In this document: positions 5,809-34,429 of the stretch, piece after piece
How the letters are laid out: each line of letters opens with the position of its first letter
Numbering within the stretch: position 1 is the stretch's first letter
From: Allonocardiopsis opalescens
Lineage (GTDB): Bacteria > Actinomycetota > Actinomycetes > Streptosporangiales > Streptosporangiaceae
Direction: 5' to 3'
DNA: 64,000 nucleotides
Assembly (NCBI RefSeq): GCF_003002095.1
Contig: NZ_PVZC01000004.1
Span: 434,001-498,000 of the forward strand
Program-made: the position numbers and the translations under genes
Notes under the pieces: model-generated
What the model was told of the DNA's origin: nothing
What the model saw: the letters and a program-made list of their open reading frames with translations, nothing else
Database searches by the model: none

Positions 5809-6930
5809 CTAACGCAGACTGCGGAAGAAGCCGCGGATGTCGTCCACCAGCACCTCGGGCACCTCGTGCGCGGCGAAGTGGCCGCCCACGTCGTAGACGT
5901 TCCAGGACCGGATGTCGCGGTGGTCGCGCTCGGCGAAGGGCCGGATGGACTGGAAGTCATTGGCGAAGTTCGCCAGCCCCAGCGGCACCGTCGTCGGCTC
6001 CGCGGGGTGCTCGGCGTGCGCGTCCTCGTAGTACAGCCGCGCCGAGGACGCCGAGGTGTTGGTGAGCCAGTAGATCATCACGTTGGTCAGCACGTAGTCC
6101 AGGCTCAGTGTCTCGCCGAGCAGCTGGGCGTTCCAGGCGAGCTGCCCGACGGGGGAGTCGGCGAGCGCGTGGGCGAGGGTCTGCGGCGCCTGCGACTGGA
6201 GCCGGTCGTAGCCGCCCACGTTCTCGTAGAACCACTGGAGGAACTTCACCTTGGCCAGGTCCTCCTCGCCCAGCTTCTCCAGCTCGGCCGGGTCGCCGGA
6301 CGGGAAGGAGAACACCTGGGTGACGTGCACGCCGATGACGTGCTCGGGGTCGAACCGGCCCACCTCGGGGGAGATGAGCGAGCCGCCGTCGTTGCCGTGC
6401 GCGCCGTAGCGCCGGTAGCCCAGGCGGCGCATCAGCTCGGCCCAGGCGCGGGCGATCCGGTAGCGGTTCCAGCCCTTCTCGCCGGTCGGGCCGGAGTAGC
6501 CGAAGCCGGGGACGGACGGGATGACCAGGTGGAAGGCGTCGGCCGGGTCGCCGCCGTGGGCGCGCGGGTCGCTGAGCGGGCCGATCACGTCCAGGTACTC
6601 GGCGACCGTGGTGGGCCAGCCGTGCGTGAGCACCAGCGGCACCGCGTCGGGCTCGGGGGAGCGGACGTGCAGGAAGTGCACGTTCTGGCCGTCGATCTCG
6701 GTGGTGAACTGCGGGTACGCGTTCAGCCGCGCTTCGGCGGCCCGCCAGTCGAAGCCGTTCTTCCAGTGGTCCAGCAGCCGGTGCACGTACTCCAGGGAGA
6801 CCCCGTACTCGGCGCCGACACCCGGCAGCTCGCCGGTGTGCCGGGTGCGGTCCAGGCGGTCGCGCAGGTCGGCGAGTTCGGCCTCGGAGGTCTCGATGCG
6901 GAAGGGACGGATGTCGTCGTTGTTCGTCAT
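5809..6930 (-). CDS. Epoxide hydrolase (copy 1)
   Basis: A 373-residue microsomal-type epoxide hydrolase. The N-terminal EHN domain spans about 1-110, with the DWRAAEA and [15 protein letters not shown] signatures. The alpha/beta hydrolase part has the oxyanion HGW at 103-105, the nucleophile Asp181 in HGNDGG, and the catalytic His in the VGGHFAAHE motif near the C-terminus. It would hydrate epoxides to diols through an alkyl-enzyme ester. The gene is divergent from a WYL regulator, and the same arrangement recurs at 51.3-53.6 kb. No Shine-Dalgarno is seen; the start is fixed by homology with the second copy. Confidence 0.88.
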   Translation of the reverse strand: MTNNDDIRPFRIETSEAELADLRDRLDRTRHTGELPGVGAEYGVSLEYVHRLLDHWKNGFDWRAAEARLNAYPQFTTEIDGQNVHFLHVRSPEPDAVPLVLTHGWPTTVAEYLDVIGPLSDPRAHGGDPADAFHLVIPSVPGFGYSGPTGEKGWNRYRIARAWAELMRRLGYRRYGAHGNDGGSLISPEVGRFDPEHVIGVHVTQVFSFPSGDPAELEKLGEEDLAKVKFLQWFYENVGGYDRLQSQAPQTLAHALADSPVGQLAWNAQLLGETLSLDYVLTNVMIYWLTNTSASSARLYYEDAHAEHPAEPTTVPLGLANFANDFQSIRPFAERDHRDIRSWNVYDVGGHFAAHEVPEVLVDDIRGFFRSLR

Positions 6931-32262: not shown

Positions 32263-33147
32263 ATGGGCGTATCAGGGGCGACCTGGGGCATCCCCGGCCC
32301 CGTGTTCCTCGCCGGATACATCGCGCTCGCGCTCGCGCTGGTCATCATCGCGGTGCTGGTGCGGTGGTTCGCCTTCCGCGGCACCCCCGCCTCCGCCCAC
32401 CCGCACCCCTACGAGCTGGCCTTCCTGGCGGGCGGACGCCACCGCGCGGCGCTCGCCTCCGTCGCCGTGCTGCGGGCGCGCGGGGCGATCGAGGTCGCCG
32501 CCGGCGGCCGGCTGCGGCCCACCGGGCAGGCGGCCGCCGACCCCACCCCACTGGACTCCGCCGTCATGGCGGCGCTGCGCGGCCCCACCGGGCCGACGGC
32601 GAGCGGCCTCGCCTCCGAAGACGGCGTCCGCGCCGCACTCGACCACGTCGAGCAGCGGCTCGTCCAGCGCGGCCTGGTCCCCTCGCGCCGGGACCGGCTG
32701 ATGGTCCGGCTGGCCGGCCTGGCGCTGGGCCTGGTGGTCGCCCTCGGCGTGGTCCGCTTCGCCGCCGGCATCGTCAACGGCGCCCCCGTCGAATTCCTCC
32801 TCGGCGCCGTCATCGCCTCGGCCGTCGCCATGTGCTACCTGCTCTCCCAGCCGGTCGCCACCTCCGCCGGACGCGACCTGGTGCAGGCGGCCACCGCCGC
32901 CTCCCGCCACCTGCGCCCGAAGATGAACCCCGCGATGGCCACCTACGGCGTCGCCGGCGCGGCCGTCGCGGTGGCGCTGTTCGGCGGCCCCGCCCTCATC
33001 GGCCTCGACCCCGCCTTCGCCGACGACGGCCGGCTGAACAGCGGCGCGGACGGCGGCAGCGGCGGGAGCGACGGCGGAGGCGGCGGGGGCGGCGACGGCG
33101 GTGGAGGCGGCTGCGGTGGCGGAGGCGGCTGCGGGTGCGGCGGATGA
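32263..33147 (+). CDS. TIGR04222 membrane protein with Gly/Cys-rich tail
   Basis: A 294-residue protein. A transmembrane segment lies at about 14-36. A cytoplasmic TIGR04222 region follows (HPHPYELAFLAGGRHRAALASVAVLRARGAIEV and the second winged-helix-like repeat). Two to three more hydrophobic segments lie at about 148-195 and 230-255. The last 40 residues are almost only Gly, Asp, Ser and Cys, ending GGCGGGGGCGCGG with cysteines at 284, 290 and 292. TIGR04222 is defined by the region preceding such low-complexity tails. The ATG has GGAGGG upstream. Its stop overlaps the MNIO start (ATGA), so the tail is the probable modification substrate. Confidence 0.85.
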   Translation: MGVSGATWGIPGPVFLAGYIALALALVIIAVLVRWFAFRGTPASAHPHPYELAFLAGGRHRAALASVAVLRARGAIEVAAGGRLRPTGQAAADPTPLDSAVMAALRGPTGPTASGLASEDGVRAALDHVEQRLVQRGLVPSRRDRLMVRLAGLALGLVVALGVVRFAAGIVNGAPVEFLLGAVIASAVAMCYLLSQPVATSAGRDLVQAATAASRHLRPKMNPAMATYGVAGAAVAVALFGGPALIGLDPAFADDGRLNSGADGGSGGSDGGGGGGGDGGGGGCGGGGGCGCGG

Positions 33148-33962
33148 CCCCGCCCGAACTGGGCGTCGGCATCGGCTGGCGCCCCGAGATCGCCGGCTTC
33201 GTCGCCGCCCTGCCCGGACTGCGCTTCACCGAGGTGATCGCCGAATCGGTCGACGCCGACCACCCCGACCCGCAGCTGCTCGCGCTGCGCGAGCGGGGCG
33301 TCACCGTGGTGCCGCACGGTGTGCGGCTCTCGCTCGGCGGCGCCGAACCGGTGCGCCCCGAGCGGGTCGCCCTGCTGGCCGACCGGGCGCAACTGCTGGA
33401 AGCGCCGCTGGTCAGCGAGCACATCGCCTTCGTGCGGGCCGGCGGCCTGGAGGCCGGCCACCTGCTGCCGGTGCCGCGCAACCGCGCCGCCCTCGACGTG
33501 CTCGCCGACAACATCCGCCGCACCACCGACGCCCTACCGGTGCCGCTGGCGGTCGAGCCGATCGCCGCCCTGTTCGACTGGCCCGACGCCGAGTACGACG
33601 AAGCCGGCTTCCTCACCGAACTGCTCGACCGCACCGACGCGCTGCTGCTGCTCGACGTGGCCAATGTGTACGCCAACGCCCGCAACCGGGGCGAGGACCC
33701 GCTCGACCTGATCGAGCGGCTGCCGCTGGAGCGGATCGCCTACTGCCACGTCGCCGGCGGCGACGACCGGGAGGGCGTCTACCACGACACCCACAGCCAT
33801 CCGGTGCCGCCCGAGGTGTTCGGCCTGGTGCGCGAGCTGTGCGCGCGGCACCGGCCACCCGGCCTGATGATCGAGCGCGACGGCGCCTACCCGTCCGCCG
33901 CCGAACTGCGCGGCGAACTGGACGCCCTGGCCGACGCCGCCGGGCTGCCCCGCGTCACATGA
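33144..33962 (+). CDS. MNIO (DUF692) multinuclear iron oxidase
   Basis: A 272-residue DUF692/MNIO family TIM-barrel enzyme. Related proteins such as MbnB and TglH use two or three iron ions to remodel cysteine or other residues in ribosomal peptides. Ligand motifs are intact: HGVRLSLG, VSEHIAF, LAVEPIA, LLLDVANVY, IAYCHVAGG, DTHSHPVPPEV and MIERDGAYP. The N-terminal GVGIGWRPEIAGFV is the TIGR04222-linked form rather than the usual GxGLRxxH. It overlaps the precursor-like gene and the downstream partner by 4 bases each, indicating tight coupling. The substrate is inferred to be the Cys tail of the upstream protein. Confidence 0.88.
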   Translation: MTPPELGVGIGWRPEIAGFVAALPGLRFTEVIAESVDADHPDPQLLALRERGVTVVPHGVRLSLGGAEPVRPERVALLADRAQLLEAPLVSEHIAFVRAGGLEAGHLLPVPRNRAALDVLADNIRRTTDALPVPLAVEPIAALFDWPDAEYDEAGFLTELLDRTDALLLLDVANVYANARNRGEDPLDLIERLPLERIAYCHVAGGDDREGVYHDTHSHPVPPEVFGLVRELCARHRPPGLMIERDGAYPSAAELRGELDALADAAGLPRVT

Positions 33963-34429
33963 GCGCGCCGTCCGACGGCGGCCGCGCCGCCCTGGCAGCC
34001 GCCCAGGAGCGGCTGCTGCGCGCCCTGGTCGCCGGGGCCGAAGCGCCCGACGGCTTCGACCGCGAGCGGCTGGCCGTGGCCGCCCGCGCCCTGCTGCGCA
34101 AGCGGGCCGCCGGCGTCGCGCGGGCCTGGCCCCGGCTGGCGCACGGGTACGGCGAGCGCTGGCCCGAGGTCTTCGCCGAGTGGGCCGCCGCCCGCCCCAC
34201 CGCCGGCGCCTGGCGCGACGGGTGGGACTTCGCCCGGGCGCACCGTGCGGCGCTGCCACCGCCGGCCGCCCGGGAGCTGGCCGGGCAGGAGTGCCGCTGG
34301 CGCTACGACGGCGCGGCCGACCCGCGTCCGCGCCGCGGCCCGGCGCTGCGCCGGGTGCCCGGCGGTGTGGTGGTCGGCCTGCTCGGCCGGACCGCCGCGT
34401 TCGTGCGGGACGCCCCCCGGGATCGGTGA
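33959..34429 (+). CDS. Small partner protein of the MNIO operon
   Basis: A 156-residue protein with no motif I can name firmly. Residues 10-60 are a helical LAAAQERLLRALVAGAEAPDGFDRERLAVAARALLRKR stretch, followed by RAWPRLAHGYGERWPEVFAEW. This resembles the helical DUF2063-type proteins (HvfC/TglI-like) that accompany many MNIO enzymes and help bind the peptide. The C-terminal third is Arg/Pro-rich with a short beta segment, VPGGVVVGLLGR. It overlaps the MNIO stop by 4 bases. A substrate-presenting role is inferred from position. Confidence 0.6.
   Translation: MSAPSDGGRAALAAAQERLLRALVAGAEAPDGFDRERLAVAARALLRKRAAGVARAWPRLAHGYGERWPEVFAEWAAARPTAGAWRDGWDFARAHRAALPPPAARELAGQECRWRYDGAADPRPRRGPALRRVPGGVVVGLLGRTAAFVRDAPRDR

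Follow-up and report, generated by a model that had tools for sequence, protein, structure and literature searches.

The cysteines in the Gly-rich C-terminal tails of TIGR04222 proteins come and go with an MNIO enzyme across about 140 genomes, which suggests that the MNIO most likely alters these tail cysteines. Judging from the sequences, the operon that encodes the TIGR04222 protein, the MNIO and a helical partner is likely to be a post-translational modification module, in which the enzyme and its partner would oxidise the cysteines of a Gly/Ser-rich tail. In the best explanation, what is conserved as the substrate is the tail, for which the TIGR04222 domain is one anchor among several. An initial annotation had read the operon as a system oxidising the Cys tail of a large membrane-anchored protein; its observation is confirmed here, and its interpretation is partly supported, being plausible and now better supported. 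The substrate hypothesis itself is already in print: Antoine et al. surveyed MNIO clusters in 2025 and put forward, as a hypothesis without experimental test, that some groups of TIGR04222 proteins serve MNIOs as substrates by way of the cysteines at their C-terminus; they also noted that MNIO genes are absent from a third of TIGR04222-bearing genomes (PMC12452194). What we add is a co-variation test, fused partners, scaffold exchange and a revised topology.

In the window, the 64,000-nucleotide stretch of Allonocardiopsis opalescens DNA analysed here, three plus-strand open reading frames encode the TIGR04222 membrane protein, the putative substrate (32263-33147; 294 aa), the MNIO of the DUF692/PF05114 type (33144-33962; 272 aa) and a partner resembling PME-type 2 (33959-34429; 156 aa). 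As described initially, the three genes overlap by exactly 4 bases, both junctions reading ATGA. The TIGR04222 and MNIO genes are each present in one copy in this genome, both at this locus. The same gene order with Cys tails recurs in seven other named genera (Actinomadura, Micromonospora, Actinoplanes, Catellatospora, Nocardia, Rhodococcus and Pseudonocardia), so the arrangement is not due to chance. The flanking genes, which we take to be a urea-type ABC transporter and an alpha/beta hydrolase upstream and an adenosine-deaminase-like gene downstream, are not common to the relatives, and we thus delimit the unit to three genes; no protease gene lies within it. Elsewhere the contexts vary by lineage (presumably PEPCK/UPPS/PhoH, pfkA-like, hemQ/hemY or argC/pheT), so that genomic neighbours offer no consistent functional hint.

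The first gene product matches the NCBIfam model TIGR04222 with an E-value of 1.2e-40 (139.6 bits against a cut-off of 43). Three transmembrane helices are predicted at residues 12-37, 142-171 and 177-194, and in the structural model (pLDDT 88) residues 49-135 form a soluble domain built from helices plus a small hairpin, and the tail is disordered with a pLDDT below 50. The protein contains four cysteines, at positions 191, 284, 290 and 292, and the last three fall inside the Gly-rich tail (residues 261-294; 33043-33144, plus strand), which ends in GGGGGGGDGGGGGCGGGGGCGCGG and is the putative modification site. The earlier description of a membrane protein with Gly-tail cysteines 284, 290 and 292 thus holds. 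As a 294-aa polytopic protein with three predicted transmembrane helices, it lacks the cleavable Sec signal peptide that marks bufferin-type precursors. A Foldseek search with the model gave no match at E<=0.001, and a scan of the genome contigs with the window protein as query returned nothing, the family being too diverse. In a PDB sequence search with the TIGR04222 profile, the top matches came from Gly linkers together with weak Crp-type winged-helix matches, and were set aside as a clue to function. In one alignment of the family (A2), 16 of 51 members weakly match DUF2207_C (best E 2e-4) and 5 of 51 match GPP34 (best E 3e-6), which suggests that the TIGR04222 domain may be akin to these two families.

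The second gene product matches PF05114 (MbnB_TglH_ChrH) with an E-value of 3e-76 (256.6 bits against a cut-off of 25). Aligned to TglH, whose iron ligands served as reference (PMC10880893), it carries all nine ligands: H58, H93, E138, D171, H202 and E244, plus N174, D215 and H217 at site 3. All nine are invariant or nearly so across 103 MNIO homologues, in agreement with the initial description of an MNIO equipped with all its iron ligands. BufB and HvfB are the closest NCBIfam models, and the window MNIO scores below the equivalog cut-offs of both (NF050167, 171.6 bits against 310; NF003818, 139.4 bits against 360) as well as of ApyH, ChrH and MbnB. At the structural level, the MNIO barrel of a homologous natural fusion (L091) has TglH (8hi7) as its best match, with a Z score of 29.7 and 2.8 A over 267 residues, and the MNIO domain of such a fusion aligns to MbnB with a Z score of 28.5.

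We surveyed 160 actinobacterial loci in addition to the window, which yielded 191 TIGR04222 proteins and 104 loci with an MNIO. For 185 proteins with a complete 3' end, a Cys tail was defined as at least two cysteines in a Gly/Ser context. An MNIO gene lies within 3 kb on the same strand for 109 of the 124 Cys-tailed proteins versus 20 of the 61 others (Fisher p=5e-14). Of the 15 remaining Cys tails, 14 belong to genomes encoding an MNIO elsewhere, as checked in the genomes without an adjacent MNIO. Counted by genome, an MNIO accompanies the Cys tail in 96 of 97; the sole exception (L155) is an artefact, an open reading frame misread through Ns. With this artefact removed, the MNIO is present in 39/39 genera with a Cys tail versus 2/11 without (p=2e-8). 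One of these two genera includes a genome that is fragmentary at the MNIO (G531), and the other (G416, G471) has an MNIO cluster of another type, whose partner is a true DUF2063 protein. In a further set of 80 named loci, retrieved by way of their MNIO, a Cys tail lies directly upstream of the enzyme in all 70 with enough upstream sequence, counting two (L287 and L327) where the TIGR04222 frame that carries the tail is broken or partial.

At a locus type whose outer genes we take to be PEPCK, UPPS and PhoH, the order PEPCK-T-MNIO-partner-UPPS-PhoH, with T the TIGR04222 gene, has shrunk in one lineage (genomes G462 and G494) to PEPCK-T-UPPS-PhoH. No MNIO is left in either genome, and both tails are devoid of Cys, the Gly tail of G462 reading GGGDGGGGDGGGE. 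Further MNIO-less lineages likewise keep Gly-rich tails without Cys; hence it is Cys, not Gly, that tracks the MNIO. Parsimony on the TIGR04222 tree gave 14 changes of Cys and 19 of MNIO, and in this rough test only 5 fell on the same branch in the same direction, which counts somewhat against the link, though about 0.7 would be expected at random over 360 branches. The proposed link between enzyme and tail is supported by the presence of Cys tail and MNIO in the same genomes, even at separate loci, and by at least one joint loss.

The residues around the tail cysteines are also strongly constrained. In 108 MNIO-linked tails with 556 cysteines, the following residue is G in 454 cases, S in 61, A in 40 and C in 1, and the preceding residue is mostly G, S or A. 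Only 1 CC pair was observed versus 57 expected from shuffled tails, and 5 polar or charged neighbours versus 49 expected; successive cysteines are mostly 3-8 residues apart. The window tail ends in C-G-C-G-G (33130-33138), and its Cys spacing of two is unique among the 108 tails. These patterns bear on the alternative that the TIGR04222 protein is a helper or regulator and its tail an assembly or solubility feature, so that the linkage merely reflects operon inheritance. TIGR04222 proteins without Cys and without MNIO are indeed widespread, and the published survey found tail cysteines absent in more than a quarter of TIGR04222 proteins (PMC12452194). However, the co-occurrence of tail and MNIO holds at different loci, the Cys context is constrained far beyond composition, and the TIGR04222 domain can be absent while the tail stays. 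We consider this alternative very improbable.

The last point comes from an actinobacterial family (f92) in which 26 of 35 genomes have an MNIO and the nine without it have no TIGR04222 protein. In five of its genomes (G690, G606, G653, G805 and G659), an MNIO is present with no detected TIGR04222, and a Cys tail is found on another protein beside the enzyme. At three loci (L364, L366 and L367) the tail is carried by a one-helix mini-protein of roughly 95-115 aa, and at two (L348 and L357) by a protein of 400-450 aa with no Pfam match and no transmembrane segment (KD19 maximum 1.26 and 1.39). Four other genomes (G631, G601, G666 and G684) have mini-proteins between MNIO and partner plus Cys-tailed TIGR04222 genes elsewhere. 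Cys-tail mini-proteins span 83-115 aa, and at six loci (L341, L342, L344, L364, L366 and L367) the start of the mini gene overlaps the MNIO stop by 4 bases. One locus (L243) has two different one-helix Cys-tail mini-proteins of 60 and 90 aa in tandem between MNIO and partner (5875-6057 and 6190-6462, plus strand). In one genome (G596) no tail adjoins the MNIO and a Cys-tailed TIGR04222 is encoded elsewhere, and in another (G626; L137/L351) the MNIO is intact and the tail is without Cys. Since the same Cys tail occurs on other scaffolds beside the same enzyme, the tail rather than TIGR04222 is the constant element, and recognition cannot need the TIGR04222 domain, given the mini-proteins that lack it. 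The scaffolds thus comprise the three-helix TIGR04222 protein, one-helix mini-proteins and a soluble protein, and are mostly membrane-tethered. Membrane anchoring, supposed in the initial annotation, is not essential, as the same tail is found on a soluble scaffold. This exchange of scaffolds under the Cys tail, seen in the sequences of one family, is new here.

Exceptions of the opposite kind occur in a genus (g3) that, from its sequences, we take to be Streptomyces. About 15 of its genomes contain an MNIO-partner fusion and only a tail-less TIGR04222 paralogue. The MNIO is adjacent in 13 of them (L079, L080, L083, L086-L088, L090-L093, L118, L120 and L121), where its ligands are intact, so a degenerate enzyme was rejected as the explanation. 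The Cys-less proteins with an MNIO nearby form a single clade and in several genomes stand beside a Cys-tailed copy; no Cys-tail open reading frame was found within about 5 kb of the tail-less loci. Six such genomes (L104, L105, L107 and L256-L258) encode, at another locus, a short TIGR04222-like paralogue with exactly one Cys in a Gly-rich tail and no detected N-terminal helix. This soluble paralogue is possibly a substrate in trans; because it is present in only some genomes, it was rejected as a general answer and kept as a lead. The tail-less Streptomyces may use a substrate encoded elsewhere or be losing the pathway. Their MNIO cluster (L079-L093 and similar) lies beside genes that we presume to be hemQ and hemY of the coproporphyrin heme pathway, and a secreted alpha/beta hydrolase-like gene is also found there. 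The refuting outcome named in the initial annotation, tail cysteines not conserved beside an MNIO, was mostly not seen, the exceptions being this tail-less paralogue lineage and one other genome, which keep an intact MNIO.

These loci lend some weight to another reading, in which the Cys tail acts simply through its thiols or by binding metal, and the MNIO and partner modify a different residue, a small peptide or a small molecule in the same pathway. Streptomyces retain enzyme and partner beside a tail-less TIGR04222 protein, and MNIOs can act on residues other than Cys (PMC12452194). In contrast, the Cys tail is the only feature common to three unrelated scaffolds beside the enzyme, and enzyme and tail cysteines were lost together in G462 and G494. 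Moreover, MbnB binds its substrate Cys thiolate at iron, and HvfB makes 5-thiooxazoles from Cys (PMC13419390). A plain tail thus appears unlikely to us, and we regard it as likely, on this comparative evidence, that the tail cysteines are modified at all.

The third gene product of the window has no NCBIfam or Pfam family match. With a profile built from stand-alone third-gene products, we found that 35 of 104 MNIO loci encode the partner domain as a C-terminal extension of the enzyme (E 1e-17 to 1e-41), mostly in the Streptomyces-like genus and in family f92. Adding 67 separate genes, the partner is present in 102 of the 104 loci; the other two are a locus with a short partner (L138) and one that stops at a contig edge (L143). 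All 80 further named loci found through the MNIO also have it. An AlphaFold2 model of one fusion (L091; pLDDT 91.6, pTM 0.88) shows the MNIO barrel followed by a helical domain at residues 301-429. Structure comparison of the fusion gave matches that span the MNIO domain only, and the partner sequence has no match in the PDB; by sequence methods it shows no likeness to NGO1945 (3dee) or TglI. Only 2 of 42 partner homologues hit DUF2063 (PF09836), at best with E=0.033, and hhalign of the partner to a true DUF2063 pair returned a probability of 1%, which is no support. A PME-type 1 identity (DUF2063 plus RRE, about 260 aa) was accordingly rejected for a protein of 156 aa without a Pfam match. 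The window partner instead has the features of the short partners named PME-type 2 in the published survey, in being encoded downstream of the MNIO, short, without a DUF2063 signature and, as seen in the fused homologue, helical (PMC12452194). The Micromonospora matsumotoense homologue (L281) is 158 aa long from its ATG, the same length as the published PME-type 2 example from this species, WP_091237309 (PMC12452194). The 35 natural fusions and this homologue corroborate the suggestion that the third gene encodes an MNIO partner. That the partner is fused to the MNIO in many loci and, by profile detection, essentially always present is new here, and the fusions account for at least part of the many TIGR04222-MNIO clusters that seemed partner-less in the survey (PMC12452194).

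The side of the membrane on which the tail lies was assessed in 177 aligned TIGR04222 proteins, taking segments with KD19>=1.6 as transmembrane-like. The K/R density is 0.16 in predicted inside regions versus 0.05 outside, with an inside excess in 176/177 proteins. The segment preceding the tail is transmembrane-like in 24/177, versus 161-169/177 for helices 1-3. In the mini-proteins, 5-7 K/R directly follow the helix and 0-1 precede it. Together, the K/R patterns and the non-transmembrane fourth segment point to an N-out, C-in topology with a cytosolic tail. It is fairly likely, on these predictions, that the tail is on the cytosolic side, together with the enzyme. This revised topology is new here and predicts a location at odds with the periplasmic one assigned by Antoine et al. 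from predicted topology (PMC12452194), in which the tail would be modified before export and act beyond the membrane, comparable to the periplasmic bufferins. The window protein itself gives some reason for that view: its helix at residues 225-240 is hydrophobic with no charged residue (KD19 2.05), which makes its tail side less sure, and a fourth transmembrane pass at 225-240 that places the tail outside is possible. Nevertheless, across the family the fourth segment is not transmembrane-like and the positive-inside counts agree on N-out/C-in, and the basic flank of the mini-proteins and the transmembrane-free soluble scaffold also place the tail in the cytosol. An extracytoplasmic tail is thus rather unlikely in our estimation.

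In the mechanism that we propose, the MNIO-partner complex would bind the flexible tail, a tail Cys thiolate would ligate the di-iron centre, as in MbnB (PMC13419390), and O2-dependent oxidation would convert the tail cysteines one by one. From the kinship of the enzyme to BufB and HvfB, a thiooxazole would be the most likely product. A heterocycle derived from Cys, like the 5-thiooxazole found in bufferins and oxazolin, is a tentative assignment that we hold with clearly less than even confidence. A tethered metal (copper) or redox-active surface as the outcome is slightly more doubtful; binding of copper or another metal by the modified tail is proposed by analogy. We also entertain, at somewhat short of even confidence, a portable Gly/Cys tag, on which a cytosolic MNIO and partner would make a metal-binding or redox heterocycle on intact proteins, and which would have moved between unrelated scaffolds.

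Among known systems, the TIGR04222-MNIO-PME-type 2 clusters of the 2025 survey (PMC12452194) have the same three families in the same order as the window unit. They were pictured as a loose association, often partner-less and with a periplasmic tail, whereas in our survey almost every MNIO locus has the partner, frequently as a fusion, the MNIO is tracked by Cys and not by the TIGR04222 domain, and the tail is also found on other scaffolds and is predicted to be cytosolic. The bufferin and oxazolin systems (BufB/BufC and HvfB/HvfC) likewise use an MNIO with a required partner on several cysteines, which become copper-binding 5-thiooxazoles (for the HvfB product, PMC13419390). When HvfB and HvfC were joined artificially, the resulting protein mimicked their complex with high activity (PMC13419390), and the Streptomyces loci here contain such an arrangement naturally. 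In contrast, the bufferin and oxazolin substrates are Sec-exported precursors and their partners DUF2063-RRE proteins, and the window unit has neither; its MNIO falls short of both equivalog assignments and its partner of the DUF2063 signature. TglHI (3-thiaglutamate) and MbnBC (methanobactin) share the fold and iron ligands of the MNIO, but their substrates are small peptides, with no TIGR04222 protein or Gly/Cys tail.

In the cited literature, the MNIO substrates characterised by experiment are peptides or small exported precursors, and our proposal, if true, would carry RiPP chemistry beyond peptides, to a tail borne by resident proteins of the cell. If such modification takes place, a three-gene unit common among soil actinobacteria would put new cofactor-like groups on full-length membrane proteins, probably at their cytosolic face. 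The mini-proteins and the natural MNIO-partner fusions offer a minimal two-gene system for a direct test, which bears on the question raised by the 2025 survey of whether and how TIGR04222 tails are modified where the partner gene seems absent.

Two further arrangements were encountered in the survey. At L148 (genome G568), in the usual site, which we take to be argC/pheT, the Cys tail continues directly into a remnant that resembles the partner, with no MNIO in between, which looks like a deletion of the enzyme gene; elsewhere this genome has a truncated MNIO accompanied by a partner (L248). Two loci (L255, 4299-6641, and L259, 4180-6528) contain a distinct MNIO cluster, in which a 10-Cys protein of 208-223 aa and an MNIO, both resembling the adjamnio-I type of the 2025 survey (PMC12452194), are accompanied by a true DUF2063 partner.
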